Assembly: GCA_022651385.1 (NCBI GenBank)
Contig: JALCQR010000001.1
Coordinates: 62,001 to 126,000 of the forward strand
Direction: 5' to 3'
Length of the DNA: 64,000 bases
From: Clostridia bacterium
GTDB taxonomy: Bacteria; Bacillota; Clostridia; Lachnospirales; Anaerotignaceae
Numbering within the stretch: position 1 is the stretch's first letter; each line of letters begins with the position of its first letter. The translations under genes were made by a program, and so were the position numbers. Shown here one piece after another: positions 41,992 through 47,617 of this stretch. The notes under the pieces are model-generated. The model saw only the letters and a program-made list of their open reading frames with translations, had not been told where the DNA came from and did not search any database.

Positions 41992-42030
41992 ACTTTTGCT
42001 GTTTTAAAAGTATTACTTGTTTTTTAATAT

Positions 42031-42113
42031 GCCGGTGTGGCGGAATTGGCAGACGCACGTGACTCAAAATCACGCGGAGACAATCCGTGCCGGTTCGAGT
42101 CCGGCCACCGGCA
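42031..42113 (+). tRNA. tRNA-Leu (anticodon CAA)
   Basis: An 83-nt class II tRNA. Acceptor GCCGGTG/CACCGGC plus discriminator A; D arm with GGCAGACGC; anticodon stem CGTGA/TCACG enclosing CTCAAAA, giving CAA (reads TTG); a long variable arm (GCGGAGACAATCCGT); T arm CCGGTTCGAGTCCGG. CCA is not encoded. The accessory block of the window begins right after this gene. Confidence 0.97.
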
Positions 42114-42117
42114 TCAC

Positions 42118-42163
42118 AAAAAAATCCATGTGTCAGAATTTGAGCTGGCAAATGGATTTTTTT
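42118..42163 (+). terminator. Terminator of tRNA-Leu
   Basis: AAAAATCCAT and ATGGATTTTTT arms with a long loop and seven T. Its 5' arm shares AAAATCCATGTGTCA with the tRNA-Arg terminator. Confidence 0.85.
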
Positions 42164-42239
42164 AATTCTATTTGTTGGCTTTTGTGCTATAATTAATCAG
42201 ATTATTTATAAAACATGAATTGATTCTGCGGAGGTCAAT

Positions 42240-43001
42240 ATGTTAGGTATTTATTTTAGCGCTACTGGCAATACGAAATACTGTGTTGAACGATTGGTGA
42301 ATAAGCTTGACAAAAAATCTAAAAGTCTAGCAATGAAAGATCCGGAAACATTAACTGCTGTACAACATGCTGACGGTTTTATTTTTGGCTATGGAGTCAA
42401 GTTTTCTAATGTTCCTAAAATAGTTCATGATTGGATATTAGCGAACAAATTCATTTTTAACGGCAAAAAAATCTTGATTATTGCGACAATGGGGGCATTC
42501 AGCGGAGATGGATCAGGATGTGCTGCAAGACTGTTCCAAAAATGCGGAGCACAAATTGTCGGAGGGCTTCACCTTCGCATGCCTGATGTTGTTGCTGACA
42601 GTAAAATGCTTAAAAAGCCGTTAGCATTCAATAAAGAGCTTGTTATAAAAGCCGGAAATAAAATCGATAACGCTGCATATGACATTCTCAATGGAAAATA
42701 TCCAAAAGAGGGGCTAAATATCTTTTATCATATCGCCGGATTGCTTGGCCAAAGGCTCTGGTTCTATTCCAAGACCAGCAGGTATAGCAATCGGCTTAAA
42801 GTTGACAGCAAAAAATGTATCCTCTGCGGATTATGCGTAAAAAATTGTCCCATGGATAATCTATACATAACAGAAAATAAACTTGTGATAAAAGGTCAAT
42901 GCACAGAATGCTACCGTTGTATCAACTGCTGCCCAAAACAAGCACTAACTTCTCTGGGGAAAAAGGTTGTTGAACAATGCTCTGTTGAAAAATACTTATA
43001 A
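42240..43001 (+). CDS. EFR1 family flavodoxin-ferredoxin fusion protein (first copy)
   Basis: A 253-residue electron carrier. The N-terminal flavodoxin domain (1-150) opens with the FMN phosphate loop IYFSATGNTKYC and includes FIFGYGVKFSNVPKIV. The C-terminal third has two 4Fe-4S motifs: CILCGLCVKNCP and CTECYRCINCCP. This arrangement defines EFR1 ferredoxins of anaerobes. A distant paralogue, in the opposite orientation, is at 51764-52540. An extended -10 (TGCTATAAT, ending 42194) gives it its own promoter. Partner enzymes are unknown. Confidence 0.93.
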   Translation: MLGIYFSATGNTKYCVERLVNKLDKKSKSLAMKDPETLTAVQHADGFIFGYGVKFSNVPKIVHDWILANKFIFNGKKILIIATMGAFSGDGSGCAARLFQKCGAQIVGGLHLRMPDVVADSKMLKKPLAFNKELVIKAGNKIDNAAYDILNGKYPKEGLNIFYHIAGLLGQRLWFYSKTSRYSNRLKVDSKKCILCGLCVKNCPMDNLYITENKLVIKGQCTECYRCINCCPKQALTSLGKKVVEQCSVEKYL

Positions 43002-43034
43002 CTTTTACTTTTCGGGTTTTTAGCATAATCAGAT

Positions 43035-43112
43035 TTGCATCTAAATTGAGCAAATGACACAAAAAGACAGGCCTGTTTTTATAACATTAGTTATAACAGG
43101 TTTGTCTTTTTT
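43035..43112 (+). repeat. 34-nt box plus terminator hairpin, element 1
   Basis: Box TTGCATCTAAATTG / AGCAAATGACACAAAAAGAC (43035-43068) flows into a hairpin, AAAAGACAGGCCTG...TTATAAC and GTTATAA...CAGGTTTGTCTTTT, ending in T. It lies 33 nt after the EFR1 stop. A short right-hand string AAAATGGTTTTGTA follows at 43120. Confidence 0.8.
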
Positions 43113-43208
43113 GTACCCTAAAATGGTTTTGTAGGTTGTTTTAGCCTGATTGTTTATGTTATACTTTTGTAAGACGATAAGAACGTCGGGTTATTGGAGG
43201 ATAATGTC

Positions 43209-43682
43209 ATGGAAATATTAAAGATTAAAAGTAACGCTTTTGATGAAGGTGGTTGGATACCCATAGAATATACAGCTCGTGGAGCAGATATATCTCCTGA
43301 TTTTAAAATAAGTAGCATTGTTCCCAATGCAAAATCAATTGCAATTACATTAGATGATGCATCACACCCCATTTTTCCAAACTATAACCATTGGGTGATA
43401 TGGAATATAGCCGTACAGTCTGTTATTCCAAAGGGGATAGCCCATGGCAAATATGTGGACAGTCTAGATGCAACGCAAGGCATTGCTTACGGAAGAAATA
43501 AATATAAAGGTCCAAAACCCCCGCTTAAGTCGATACATACATATGTGTTTACTATTTATATACTGGATTGTACGTTAGATTTAGCTGCAAATTGTAGAAA
43601 GCGGGATTTTTTAAACAATGCTGATGGTCATATCTTGCAGCAAGCAACTTTATCTGGAAAGTTTCAAAGTCGAAGAGAATAA
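43209..43682 (+). CDS. PEBP family protein (YbhB/YbcL, Raf kinase inhibitor-like)
   Basis: A 157-residue phosphatidylethanolamine-binding-protein fold. Seen: YTARGADISPDFKIS, LDDASHPIFPNYNHWVIWNI (the ligand-site DxAxH and HW motifs, about 52-72) and GPKPPLKSIHTYVFTIYILD (about 107-126). ATG 43209 is preferred over a TTG at 43194 since GGAGG is 8 nt upstream. Bacterial members have no settled role. A promoter (TTGTTT, 18 nt, TATACT) lies before it. Two repeat elements follow it in tandem. Confidence 0.92.
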   Translation: MEILKIKSNAFDEGGWIPIEYTARGADISPDFKISSIVPNAKSIAITLDDASHPIFPNYNHWVIWNIAVQSVIPKGIAHGKYVDSLDATQGIAYGRNKYKGPKPPLKSIHTYVFTIYILDCTLDLAANCRKRDFLNNADGHILQQATLSGKFQSRRE

Positions 43683-43686
43683 GACA

Positions 43687-43754
43687 TTGCATCTATTTTG
43701 TACTAATGACACAGTCGAGAGCCTCGACACGCAATTCGCGTACCGGGGCTTTTT
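43687..43754 (+). repeat. 34-nt box plus terminator hairpin, element 2a
   Basis: A diverged box, TTGCATCTATTTTG / TACTAATGACACAGT, four nt after the PEBP stop, followed by hairpin AGCCTCG / CGGGGCT (43720-43750) and T-run. Between 43755 and 43786 nothing else is recognised. Confidence 0.7.
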
Positions 43755-43786
43755 GTTGTTTTACCTTAGACGTCCGTGCCGGAAGA

Positions 43787-43864
43787 TTGCTCTAAATTAA
43801 ACAAATGACAAAAAAAGTAAAAAGCTGCATGCTTACTGAGTTTTCAGTAATTCATGAGGCTTTT
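43787..43864 (+). repeat. 34-nt box plus terminator hairpin, element 2b
   Basis: Box TTGCTCTAAATTAA / ACAAATGACAAAAAAAG followed by an imperfect hairpin AAAAGCTGCATGCTTACTGA / TCAGTAATTCATGAGGCTTTT. It stands in tandem with 2a behind one gene, which a plain terminator would not need. The remaining gap to 43980 is featureless. Confidence 0.7.
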
Positions 43865-43980
43865 CTTTATTTGAGATTGTACGACACTTATCTGTGGAGA
43901 GAAACTGCTTCCGACCGGAAGCAATTAATTTATACAAAACGTGCCTTTTTTTCAGCCTGACTGACAAAAGTTCTCTGTAC

Positions 43981-44031
43981 TTGACAAGATTAGATTGCTA
44001 TCATATAATTGATATATCGATTATATGATAG
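43981..44031 (+). promoter_or_regulatory. Promoter and MarR operator of the MarR-MFS operon
   Basis: TTGACA (43981), a 17-nt spacer and TATAAT (44004-44009). Arms CTATCATATAAT (43998-44009) and ATTATATGATAG (44020-44031) form a perfect 12-bp inverted repeat that covers the -10 box, a classic position for self-repression by a MarR dimer. Confidence 0.85.
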
Positions 44032-44085
44032 TCTATTAGTTTTGGTAAATCATACCTATTTTTAGGAAGAAAGAGAGGCGCTGAA

Positions 44086-44526
44086 ATGGAAACTTCTTTA
44101 GATGAAACCATTGGGTTGCAGGCAAATCAGATGCAGAAAAAGATGCTGAGATATTTGAATCGGAGCTTAGAGTGGTACGAAATCACATTAGAGCAGTGGG
44201 TCGTTCTGTCGACGCTATCGGAAAACGAGAGTATCAATCAAAGGTCGCTGTCCGCTAAAATTGAAAAGGACCCAACGTCCCTGTTAAGAATATTGGATAT
44301 ACTGGAAAAAAAAGGACTTGTCGAACGAAGACCTTTTCAGGGTGACCGTAGGGCTTCCTCTCTGTTTATCACCGAAAATGGGAAACACCTGCGAAGCGAA
44401 GTGGCACCATATATCGAGAACCGTTTTAAGGAAATAACCGCGAACATCTCCGCGGGCGAAATCGAAGTCTACGAAAAGGTTTTGGGAGAAATAAGCCGCA
44501 ACCTCGACGGGTTGCTGAAAAAATAA
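44086..44526 (+). CDS. MarR family transcriptional regulator (drug-efflux regulator)
   Basis: A 146-residue winged-helix regulator. NQRSLSAKIEKDPTSLLRIL (about 62-81) is the recognition helix region and GLVERRPFQGDRRASSLFIT the wing. It is directly upstream of a 14-helix exporter on the same strand and a perfect 12-bp palindrome overlaps its promoter, so it probably represses itself and the exporter until a toxic ligand binds. GAGAGG precedes the ATG. Its GC content, like that of the exporter, is above that of the surroundings. Confidence 0.93.
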   Translation: METSLDETIGLQANQMQKKMLRYLNRSLEWYEITLEQWVVLSTLSENESINQRSLSAKIEKDPTSLLRILDILEKKGLVERRPFQGDRRASSLFITENGKHLRSEVAPYIENRFKEITANISAGEIEVYEKVLGEISRNLDGLLKK

Positions 44527-44666
44527 GCCTTACCAAAGCAATATCGCTTGTCGATGAACACAGGCCGCCTAAGTTTGTGCAAATGCAGCTTTTCTACGGT
44601 CTATCCATAAAAAACAGTTTACAAAACTCACTATATTTATTTTACTATTTTGGAGGCTAGTTATTT

Positions 44667-46151
44667 ATGACAGATTCACAAAACACTTGTATTACAAACA
44701 ATCCAACACAATCGTCTTTTCACGTTGGAGCCATTACCGCCGTGCTGACCATCTCCGGATTTTTCTGCATGCTGAATGAAACCGTGCTTAATATGGCGCT
44801 GAAAAACGTTATGAGTCAGTTTGACATTTCAGCAATCACTGCTCAGTGGCTAAGCACCGGCTATATGCTGATTATGGGAGTTTCCATACCCATTTCGGCA
44901 TTTTTTATTCAGACGGTGAAAACCAGGCCGCTTTACATAATTTCCATGCTGATATTCATCTTCGGCACATGCGTGAGCGGTTTTGCTCCGGCCTTTCCTA
45001 TTCTGCTTGCCGGCCGCCTGATACAGGCAGTAGGAACCGGAATGCTGATCCCTAACATCGTCAACACGCTGGTCGTCATCAACCCTGAGGATAAGCGAGG
45101 GAAAGCACTGGGCATTTTCAATTTAGTGATGTTCTTTGCACCAGCCATAGGTCCAGTCATCTCCGGTATCATCGTGCAGGCATTAAACTGGAGATGGCTG
45201 TTTTTTATCATTTTGCCGTTTAGTATTATCTCACTTATTCTGGGAATCATCTTCCTGGAAAACGTGACAGAACTTTCGAAGCCGCACCTTGATATCGTTT
45301 CGGTCATCCTTTCCACCATCGGCTTCGGTGGCCTGATCTACGGTGCCAGCAACCTTGGGGCGGGCACCCTGGCTCTCGTTGTCGTTCCGCTGCTGGCTGG
45401 CGTAATTGCGCTGGTTCTGTTCGGTCTGCGGCAGGCAAGCCTGAAGGAACCGATGCTGGATCTCCATACGTTTATGTACCCAATGTTCACACTTGGAACC
45501 CTGCTCATCATCATCATGCACATGGTAAATTTTGCAATAATGCTTCTTCTTCCGCTGTTTATGGAGGGGGCGATGGGCCTGAGCGCGTTCACAGCTGGCC
45601 TGATAATGCTCCCCGGCGGAGTCATAAACGGCATCGTGGCGCCGATTGCCGGTGGAATCTACGACAAATACGGACCGAGAGTTCTGATATTTCCAGGCTT
45701 TCTCCTCTCGGCGGTCGTGTTTTTTCTCCTTTCCCGCACCATGACGGTCTCAGTCGCCATTCCCACAATCATCATACTGCACTGTCTGTCACTGATTGCC
45801 GTGGGAATGATAAACACTCCAACTCAGACGAACAGCCTGAACCAGCTGACGCCCGAGCTGTACCCGCACGGTACCGCTATCACCAACACCCTGCAGCAAA
45901 TCGGCGGCGCATTTGGAACTTCGCTCTTTGTTGCCATCATGACGGCGGGGCAAAAGAACTATGTTAACAGTATGGAAAATTCCGGCGCGGAAATCCAGGC
46001 GCAAGGTTTGGCCGTGGGCGTGCAGCAGTCCCTTACTGTAGCCTTCATAATCCTAATCCTTGGTGTTATCATTGCTTTTTTCGTCAAACGCAATTCGAAA
46101 ATAAGAAAGCCGCTGCGCTCACTTAAGCTTGCATCTAAATTGGGAAAATAA
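44667..46151 (+). CDS. DHA2 family (EmrB/QacA) MFS multidrug exporter
   Basis: A 494-residue proton-driven efflux transporter with 14 predicted helices. Motif D1-like LNETVLNMALKNVM (about 36-49), motif B LIQAVGTGMLIPNIVNTLVV and motif C FAPAIGPVISGIIVQALNWR are characteristic of the DHA2 group. Its GC content is clearly higher than that of neighbouring genes, giving long antisense open frames, a sign of transfer from another lineage. Its last codons (KLASKLGK) fall inside the repeated 34-nt box, so the element forms the gene's 3' end. Partner MarR is 140 nt upstream. Confidence 0.95.
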   Translation: MTDSQNTCITNNPTQSSFHVGAITAVLTISGFFCMLNETVLNMALKNVMSQFDISAITAQWLSTGYMLIMGVSIPISAFFIQTVKTRPLYIISMLIFIFGTCVSGFAPAFPILLAGRLIQAVGTGMLIPNIVNTLVVINPEDKRGKALGIFNLVMFFAPAIGPVISGIIVQALNWRWLFFIILPFSIISLILGIIFLENVTELSKPHLDIVSVILSTIGFGGLIYGASNLGAGTLALVVVPLLAGVIALVLFGLRQASLKEPMLDLHTFMYPMFTLGTLLIIIMHMVNFAIMLLLPLFMEGAMGLSAFTAGLIMLPGGVINGIVAPIAGGIYDKYGPRVLIFPGFLLSAVVFFLLSRTMTVSVAIPTIIILHCLSLIAVGMINTPTQTNSLNQLTPELYPHGTAITNTLQQIGGAFGTSLFVAIMTAGQKNYVNSMENSGAEIQAQGLAVGVQQSLTVAFIILILGVIIAFFVKRNSKIRKPLRSLKLASKLGK

Positions 46152-46195
46152 CACAAAAAGACATAGTCCCATACAAATGGGAAGATATGCCTTTT
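46129..46195 (+). repeat. 34-nt box plus terminator hairpin, element 3
   Basis: Box TTGCATCTAAATTG / GGAAAATAACACAAAAAGAC overlaps the last seven codons of the exporter gene. The hairpin uses GACATAGTCCCAT / ATGGGAAGATATGCC. The right-hand string AAAATGGTATCATA (46203) resembles that after element 1. Confidence 0.8.
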
Positions 46196-46325
46196 ATGTA
46201 TGAAAATGGTATCATAAATCAACAATCTCAAAATCGTATGCCAATCAGAAGGTAAATGCTGATTATTTATGTACTCTTACTTAATGATAAATTGCATTAG
46301 AGAAAAATAGAAACGTGGTGTTATT

Positions 46326-46613
46326 ATGGCAATTGTATTTTTAGGTGTCTATTGGCTTCTTATGGCAATTTTAAGTTGGTTTGGTTGCCCTTATATTGTT
46401 CGGAAAAAATATAGAAAAGAGACTTGGTGCAAAGCCTTCCAACGAGATATTGCCCTGCCTCACTTTATACTTGGGGTTGGATTTATTTTTATGGGGTTAA
46501 AATATCCGGATTTCTACGGACAAAACACTTTTCAATTCTGCATTGGCTTAATTGTTATTGGTGCGGTTGCATTTATTCTTACATTTAAAGTGCGAAACAA
46601 GTATGACTTATAG
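46326..46613 (+). CDS. Small membrane protein of unknown function
   Basis: A 95-residue protein with three hydrophobic helices (about 2-20, 47-61, 68-86) and a basic loop VRKKYRKETWCKAFQR between the first two. It ends in a charged tail, FKVRNKYDL. No family name comes to mind; DUF3784-like small membrane proteins have a similar layout. The ribosome site is weak. It is followed by a terminator hairpin and stands alone among accessory genes. Confidence 0.65.
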   Translation: MAIVFLGVYWLLMAILSWFGCPYIVRKKYRKETWCKAFQRDIALPHFILGVGFIFMGLKYPDFYGQNTFQFCIGLIVIGAVAFILTFKVRNKYDL

Positions 46614-46648
46614 TCCGTTTGCTAAATATGAATTTATCTGGGACTGTG

Positions 46649-46736
46649 TCTAATGAGCGCAATTTTCCAATAAGAAAAGCAACATAATAGGATTTGAACC
46701 TATATGTTGCTTTCTTTGTTATATAATGGTATGCTA
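46649..46736 (+). repeat. Terminator hairpin with decayed 34-nt box (possible element 3b)
   Basis: TCTAATGAGC (46649) is a shortened match to the box, then AAAGCAACAT(A)ATAGG / CCTATATGTTGCTTT (46676-46713) forms a 15-bp hairpin with one bulge. ATAATGGTATGCTA at 46723 matches the right-hand string of elements 1 and 3. Membership of the family is likely but not certain; terminator function is clear. Confidence 0.55.
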
Positions 46737-46766
46737 TGATTAATTTTCGAAGGAGGGATGCGCTAT

Positions 46767-47522
46767 ATGGAAATTATTACTGTTACAAAAGATAATATAG
46801 AACAAGAGCATATTTGCTGTGCTATTTCAAATAACAAAGATTATCAGGTTTCTGCAAAAAAATCTTGGCTTGTGGAAAGATTTCGTGATGGGCTTGTCTT
46901 CAAAAAAGGCAATGTACGAGGCAAATGCTTTATTGAGTATATTCCTGCTGAAAAAGCATGGTCACCTATTAAAGCAGATGGATATATGTTCATAAATTGT
47001 TTTTGGGTATCGGGACAATTTAAGGGACATGGCAATTCTAATCTTCTGTTGGACGAATGTATTAAGGACAGCAAAGAAAAAGGTAAACAGGGGCTTGTGG
47101 TTTTATCTTCTAAAAAGAAAATGCCATTTCTTTCAGATCCAAAGTATTTAAGATATAAAGGGTTTGAATTAGCTGATACGGCAGAACCATTTTACGAGTT
47201 ATTGTATTTACCTTTTGAAAAGTCATCTGCCAAACCTTGTTTTATGGACAGAGTTAAATCTCCAAAAATAGAAGAACAGGGTTTTGTGCTTTACTATACA
47301 TATCAATGCCCATTTACAGCAAAATATGTGCCTTTGGTAGAAGCTGTCGCTAATAAAAAGAGTATTCCATTTAAGTCTGTTCGCTTTGAAACAACGGAGC
47401 AGGCACAGAATGCTCCCGCTCCCTTTACTTCTTATAGTTTGTTTTTCAATGGCGAATTTGTAACAAATGAAATCCTTTCTGAAAAGAAATTTGAAAAAAT
47501 TATTGCTGAAAAAGGGCTGTAA
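46767..47522 (+). CDS. GNAT-like acetyltransferase with C-terminal YoaP-type domain
   Basis: A 251-residue two-part protein. The N-terminal half is GNAT-like: FWVSGQFKGHGNSNLLLDEC (about 74-93) is the acetyl-CoA loop and KYLRYKGFELADTAEPFYEL the closing strand. The C-terminal 90 residues form a thioredoxin-like YoaP domain beginning FVLYYTYQCPFTAKYVPLVE and ending NGEFVTNEILSEKKFEK. Start at 46767 is chosen for AAGGAGGG at 10 nt; the ATG at 46758 is too close to that site. The substrate is unknown. Confidence 0.85.
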   Translation: MEIITVTKDNIEQEHICCAISNNKDYQVSAKKSWLVERFRDGLVFKKGNVRGKCFIEYIPAEKAWSPIKADGYMFINCFWVSGQFKGHGNSNLLLDECIKDSKEKGKQGLVVLSSKKKMPFLSDPKYLRYKGFELADTAEPFYELLYLPFEKSSAKPCFMDRVKSPKIEEQGFVLYYTYQCPFTAKYVPLVEAVANKKSIPFKSVRFETTEQAQNAPAPFTSYSLFFNGEFVTNEILSEKKFEKIIAEKGL

Positions 47523-47548
47523 AAAATGGTTTAAATTATTTTACAAAG

Positions 47549-47617
47549 TTGCATCTAAATTGGACAAGGACACAAAAATAAAAACTCCGAGTTGGTTAAG
47601 TTACTGCTCGTTTTTTT
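47549..47617 (+). repeat. 34-nt box plus terminator hairpin, element 4
   Basis: Box TTGCATCTAAATTG / GACAAGGACACAAAAA 26 nt after the GNAT-YoaP stop, then a weaker hairpin AAAACTCCGAG / CTCGTTTT with seven T. Confidence 0.75.

Follow-up and report, generated by a model that had tools for sequence, protein, structure and literature searches.

What is a short conserved box doing behind several unrelated accessory genes of a Clostridia genome? The question is raised by a stretch of 64,000 nucleotides of contig JALCQR010000001.1 (hereafter the window), in which an earlier note had described five clear copies and one decayed copy of such a box, each followed by a hairpin of variable sequence, and had read them as possible cassette boundaries. 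We compared the box, its flanks and the genes before it with those of other genomes. Each unit is made of a hairpin, an often promoter-like left end, a cargo and the box. Units have both junctions defined to the base, reuse the same left ends at two kinds of site, lie in one orientation, are present in some genomes and absent from others, are anchored on tRNA genes and carry diverse cargo. Most probably, the units are small, non-autonomous, tRNA-anchored cassettes of one or a few genes that have the box as their right attachment end and that would be recombined at a CA dinucleotide by a site-specific recombinase acting in trans.

We assayed the box copies of the window with a position-weight matrix trained on 30 boxes, all from outside the window. 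In this set the box has the consensus CCTGCATCTAAATTGAGCAAATGACACA, with 25 conserved bases, and a leftward-extended form, GAGCATAATCAGAACCT, is frequent. The five best matches in the 64 kb, all on the + strand, are the five copies seen earlier, with scores of 45.8 bits (43034), 35.5 bits (46128), 16.4 bits (43686), 8.9 bits (43785) and -0.4 bits (47548). Over 40 simulated windows the matrix maximum was 14.6 bits, with a mean of 6.2. Hence copies 1, 4 and 2 (43034, 46128 and 43686) are significant alone, since they exceed every simulated window. The support for copies 3 and 5 is their position in the array, to which copy 5, with a 1-base deletion in the box, adds an intact 14-base core. This core, TTGCATCTAAATTG, gave 16 matches against 20.7 expected when 3 mismatches were allowed, which is not significant alone, so that statistical significance rests on the box of 25–28 bases. 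All five clear copies are thus present. The decayed copy, previously placed at about 46649, may be GTGTCTAATGAGCGCAATTTTCCA (46646–46669, + strand), which a by-eye alignment sets immediately 5' of a left end. Nothing else in the 64 kb outranks the five copies, and a search of the whole genome at up to 3 mismatches returned no box beyond those of the window. Among the boxes inspected, 32 of 35 are followed by a terminator-like hairpin (z < -2) and 31 of 35 by a T-run. An Rfam search, at curated thresholds and with E-values up to 10, gave no match for the box, only tRNAs reaching threshold. The idea that each box might have an inverted partner on its 5' side was dropped, since the scores were at chance level.

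The box is rare and scattered. An exact scan for GCATCTAAATTGRNCAAATGACA across 84,980 species genomes matched at 12 sites, in Clostridium guangxiense, Syntrophomonas, Caproiciproducens galactitolivorans, Intestinimonas, Clostridium sporosphaeroides and several other Clostridia; altogether the box occurs in about 24 Clostridia genomes besides that of the window, behind unrelated genes. These comparisons, like all those below, are between species, and many of the genomes are metagenome assemblies. We also allowed 3 mismatches in sampled genomes, with the reversed pattern as a control that gave 0 matches. Within the window's family, 2 of 58 genomes carry the box; the figures are 4 of 392 for the order, 2 of 391 for the class, 5 of 200 for the Caproiciproducens family and 5 of 11 for one genus. 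Its frequency in the wide samples is about 0.5–2.5% of genomes, with 1–5 copies per genome. At the species level it is therefore not a common feature behind most genes, a distribution that would have spoken against cassettes. In viral contigs, plasmids and phages, searches for the box and the left end gave no convincing match except a gene-less mini-unit in one viral contig (L065; loci are labelled L and genomes G). The matches at L024–L026 span just 18 bases and were set aside as probably due to chance.

The earlier note overlooked the anchor. Using tRNA finders, we found boxes 3' of tRNA or tmRNA genes and on the same strand as these. The anchors are tRNA-Leu in the window, L053, L030 and L060, tRNA-Ser in L057 and L058, tRNA-Arg in L047 and L032, tRNA-Gly in L049, tRNA-Ala in L078, tRNA-Val in L085, tmRNA in L056 and L082, and tRNA 3' ends in L013 and L065. 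Counted by hand, a tRNA, a tmRNA or its 3' end lies directly upstream in 15 of 30 loci and a serine-recombinase element ending in GCACCA in 2 of 30, and 5 of 30 cannot be scored because the contig or the examined stretch is short.

Units start immediately after the 3' CCA of the tRNA or tmRNA, or after the preceding box. What follows either of them is a hairpin and, in many units, then a promoter-like stretch. In the loci compared, the motif of this stretch, at up to 4 mismatches, has a single kind of position, some 90 nt 3' of a CCA or of a box. The left-end class ATAATAAAAGGATTTGAACC..GGTTTGAGTCC..TATACTCAGTTCAGATTATTTATA is shared by units that follow a tRNA-Leu, a tRNA-Ser and a box. Similarly, the left end TAGAAACTCCATGTGTCAGG is joined to a box (..GACACA) in L010 and to a tmRNA (..CACCA) in L136/L082, and the mini-unit that runs from GTCGAGAGCC to a box follows ..GACACA in the window, the ..CCA of a tmRNA, of a tRNA-Arg and of a tRNA-Leu end in G775, and a tRNA 3' end in the viral contig L065. 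The same left ends are thus found at both kinds of site, and the joining base, immediately after CA, does not depend on whether a tRNA end or a box precedes. The variable hairpin, formerly taken for the tail of the box's own gene, instead belongs to the following unit as its left end or, behind the last box, is probably the tRNA terminator, displaced. The tip of many left hairpins has the sequence AGGATTTGAACCT, which resembles a reversed tRNA T-arm. An attC-like pairing of right and left ends, noticed by eye in one unit, did not rise above shuffles across the set and was rejected.

We analysed matching sites with and without units. Behind tRNA-Ala, G932 and G980 carry a unit after the CCA, which in G981 and G805 runs directly into the terminator. 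Behind the tmRNA of G980, a 316-bp unit has the box at its end, and the sequence beyond it, ATCAAAAAGCCGCATCAG.., is similar to the native tmRNA terminator of G979 (AATCAAAAACCCGCATGAG..). G932 has an adenosine deaminase unit of 1571 bp, with ..GTGCTGCACCA on one side and a DUF4417 unit on the other, that is missing from G779, the flank similarity between the two genomes (88.7%) stopping at the ..GTGCTGCACCA junction. A subtilase gene with its box leads into three different downstream sequences in L014, L015 and L016, the next being a glyoxalase unit in L016, and similarity ends inside the box. These cases are compatible with units inserted 3' of the RNA gene and ahead of its terminator, which would then be the final hairpin. 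At the species level, matching sites thus differ in having or lacking gene-plus-box units, which would not be expected of units that never moved. The reading of gene, conserved box and structured tail as a cassette stood in so far as the box is rare, lies behind unrelated genes in distant Clostridia and marks units that one genome has and another lacks; the tail had been assigned to the wrong side.

Related forms were seen at the same kinds of site. The 316-bp tmRNA unit of G980 (L082) has both ends intact and no obvious gene, a form like that of miniature inverted-repeat transposable elements. Behind ssrA of G986 (L137) and G982 (L143) stand units of about 170 bp that have no gene and are repeated in tandem. 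Each starts with a terminator, and its other end duplicates the 21 final bases of ssrA (CGACTCTCGTCATCTCCACCA); they are a related type of unit in which a tRNA-like end replaces the box. In the tRNA-Ala(CGC) orthologue of G986 (L151), similarity seems to break off some 21 bases short of the 3' end, as though this end had been replaced.

In the window, the array starts behind a tRNA-Leu (CAA) gene (42030–42115; ARAGORN, Rfam RF00005), and all its features lie on the + strand. The left end of unit 1 (42116–42211) consists of the hairpin CAAAAAAATCCATGTGTCAG..CTGGCAAATGGATTTTTTT followed by TATAATTAATCAGATTATTTATAA; it has CAGATTATTTATA and the position of a promoter-like TATAAT/TATACT in common with the left ends of L053, L057 and L058, which sit behind tRNA-Leu, tRNA-Ser and a box, respectively. 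Its cargo (42240–43001) is an EFR1-type flavodoxin and 4Fe-4S ferredoxin protein of 253 amino acids, for which the Pfam Fer4 models score above cut-off and the flavodoxin matches slightly under it. The right end of this unit (43022–43061), the top external-matrix match, is the extended form AGCATAATCAGATTTGCATCTAAATTGAGCAAATGACACA, whose 5' extension ATAATCAGAACCT recurs in L007, L010, L016, L018 and L081–L084. Unit 2 comprises a left-end hairpin (43062–43110; dG -22.9, z -6.8), a PEBP/RKIP protein (43194–43682; Pfam PF01161, E 1e-22), whose open reading frame (ORF) begins at TTG 43194 with an ATG at 43209, and its box (43689–43713, the 16.4-bit match). The two boxes behind PEBP had been described as a tandem pair; positions 43714–43812 are in fact a separate gene-less mini-unit, composed of the GTCGAGAGCC terminator, a spacer of about 35 nt and box 3, of the type that recurs behind tmRNA and tRNA in G775 and in L065.

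The next unit carries two genes. Its left-end hairpin (43813–43871; dG -18.6, z -4.3) is followed by a MarR regulator (44086–44526; PF01047) and an MFS exporter (44667–46151; PF07690), and it closes with the box at 46131–46155 (35.5 bits), which holds the last codons and the stop of the exporter, as already described and as the ORF list confirms. Then come a left-end hairpin (46156–46197; z -2.7) and a small membrane protein of 95 amino acids with no Pfam match (46326–46613), before the putative decayed right end. The left end of the last unit (46670–46740), the AGCAACATAATAGGATTTGAACCTATATGTTGCT hairpin and TATAATGGTATGCTA, has the same hairpin apex as those of the adenosine deaminase (ADA) and DUF4417 units of L077 and as L057 and L058. 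It precedes a GNAT-YoaP protein (46758–47522; PF14268, E 4e-22), homologues of which adjoin boxes in G258, G900 and G981, which makes four genomes with the window. The box with the 1-nt deletion, the fifth-ranked match, ends this unit (47551–47574). The hairpin after it (47575–47617) folds weakly (z -1.0) and, from its position and from what is seen at other loci, is probably the old, displaced tRNA-Leu terminator. The window contains no recombinase of the types probed.

Elsewhere, the cargo includes GNAT, HNH, nucleoside phosphorylase, glyoxalase, methyltransferases, adenosine deaminase, a sigma factor, a CAAX protease, chloramphenicol acetyltransferase and GNAT-YoaP, as well as genes of phage defence, namely IetAS, type IIG restriction and a PtuB-like HNH. 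The IetAS anti-phage system is box-unit cargo in L050, L052 and L058, degraded in the last. In L084 (G984, 600–1430), a chloramphenicol acetyltransferase (PF00302) stands immediately before the box and beside an XRE-like regulator.

These arrangements suggest how cassettes may be gained. A free unit, perhaps a circle, with ..GAGCAAATGACACA joined directly to the hairpin, would recombine with a site bounded on the left by a tRNA or tmRNA 3' end (..CCA) or by a box already in place (..ACA), and on the right by a terminator hairpin. A conservative, site-specific exchange of right halves at the common CA, performed by a recombinase supplied in trans, would place the unit between the RNA gene and the old terminator and would always give it the orientation of the tRNA. 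The left-end hairpin would then terminate the upstream transcript, the unit's own promoter would drive the cargo and the next hairpin would terminate the cargo transcript, while repeated insertion would give rise to tandem arrays like that of the window. Candidate enzymes are a chromosomal XerD-like or a second tyrosine recombinase, or the serine recombinases that end at CACCA. A XerD-like gene (about 300 amino acids) and a second tyrosine recombinase gene (about 340 amino acids) are adjacent, on opposite strands, in several box-bearing genomes (G932, G776, G980, G981, G780 and G834). Serine recombinases lie at about four loci exactly at CACCA, but their end is unlike the box, and we retain them as a lead only. 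In L077 (G932) and L051 (G779), the gene end of a large serine recombinase element coincides with the ..GTGCTGCACCA cassette junction. The element of G932 lies about 11 kb downstream of tRNA-Leu(CAA), with GCACCA in common, and its recombinase gene copy is frameshifted.

Several observations weigh against this scheme. The shared core is CA only, which is short for a known tyrosine recombinase; 3 of 35 boxes have no clear hairpin behind them; and 8 of 30 loci show no tRNA in the flanking sequence examined. There is no recombinase among the identified cargo of the sampled units, and none is consistently linked to them. Among the same-family genomes searched via EF-P we found no empty-site relative of the window locus, because the compared genomes have no tRNA-Leu at that place, and no excision or mobility was observed in the between-species comparisons.

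Could the boxes then be scars, the attR ends of tRNA-targeting integrative elements or phages that have lost their integrase? We consider this unlikely, although tRNA 3' ends are the classic target of such elements, serine-recombinase elements and prophage remnants lie at some box sites (L051, L077, L013 and L050), and the tandem tmRNA units of G986 and G982 end in attR-like tmRNA copies. The box does not change with the tRNA and has only CA in common with its 3' end, the units of 0.1–2.5 kb are stacked in tandem with one box each, and no integrase remnant was seen within them. One-orientation tandem arrays, accessory cargo, a fixed exchange point and insertion beside an anchor recall integrons, and the box with its hairpin might be an unusual attC moved by an IntI-like enzyme. 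However, none of 22 box-bearing genomes encodes an integron integrase over the cut-off of the IntI model TIGR02249 (265 bits); the best score, 102.9 bits, is that of ordinary tyrosine recombinases, and 14 control genomes give similar weak matches. Moreover, neither strand of the right end forms a fold as single-stranded DNA (z +1.4 and +1.5), and in 8 of 9 units the pairing of the right with the left end is no stronger than that of shuffled sequences. A diverged integron is less likely still, and the earlier suggestion of an integron-like site fails, in its strict sense, on both the integrase and the attC-type pairing.

A conserved 3' untranslated region or terminator-linked regulatory element, spread with genes by general horizontal transfer, would fit with the box always lying on the gene strand between gene and terminator and, in one case, containing the stop codon. 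Yet the box is missing from about 98–99% of related genomes, it also stands behind tRNA and tmRNA without an intervening protein gene, the left ends are conserved too and no Rfam family matches; we give this explanation very little credence. The tRNA-anchored cassettes thus remain our preferred reading. More broadly, and more tentatively, Clostridia may possess a cassette system distinct from integrons, in which a host or helper recombinase would read a tRNA 3' end or a box on the left and a hairpin on the right and carry out an exchange at CA, so that tRNA genes would be universal landing pads for single genes, including those for phage defence and drug resistance. If this is true, gut and environmental Clostridia would gain, through tRNA-anchored cassette capture, a route to single genes comparable to that of integrons, by which phage defence, chloramphenicol acetyltransferase, efflux and detoxification could be acquired. 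The box and left-end motifs can serve as a search tool, and the recombinase becomes a well-defined question.

A search of one open-access literature library found no description of such a cassette system, which is weak evidence of novelty. The closest relatives in form are integron cassettes and clusters of attC sites lacking integron-integrases (CALIN), which likewise consist of small, promiscuous accessory genes in tandem and in one orientation, with one site per gene and a fixed anchor; tandem, same-orientation cassettes with one site each are found in the window, L058, L077 and L078. In contrast to integrons, which are reported to be extremely rare in Firmicutes (PMC9024848), the box units have neither IntI nor an attC fold or paired ends, their left end is often promoter-like and their anchor is a tRNA or tmRNA 3' end rather than an attI beside intI. 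Elements that target tRNAs, including tycheposons, likewise insert at tRNA 3' ends with variable cargo and repeatedly at one site. Tycheposons are described as measuring 4–200 kb and being bordered by a tRNA and a tyrosine recombinase (PMC10872708), whereas box units, compared with these and with tRNA islands, measure 0.1–2.5 kb, lack a recombinase gene and have as their right end a box independent of the tRNA; a right end that carries a copy of the target tRNA 3' end occurs only in the separate gene-less tmRNA units. Finally, non-autonomous elements derived from IS200/IS605 (PATE, REP) resemble box units in their left hairpin, a target on the left, the lack of a visible target duplication and a fixed orientation, but the right end of box units has no hairpin and their targets are tRNA ends and boxes instead of any short word.

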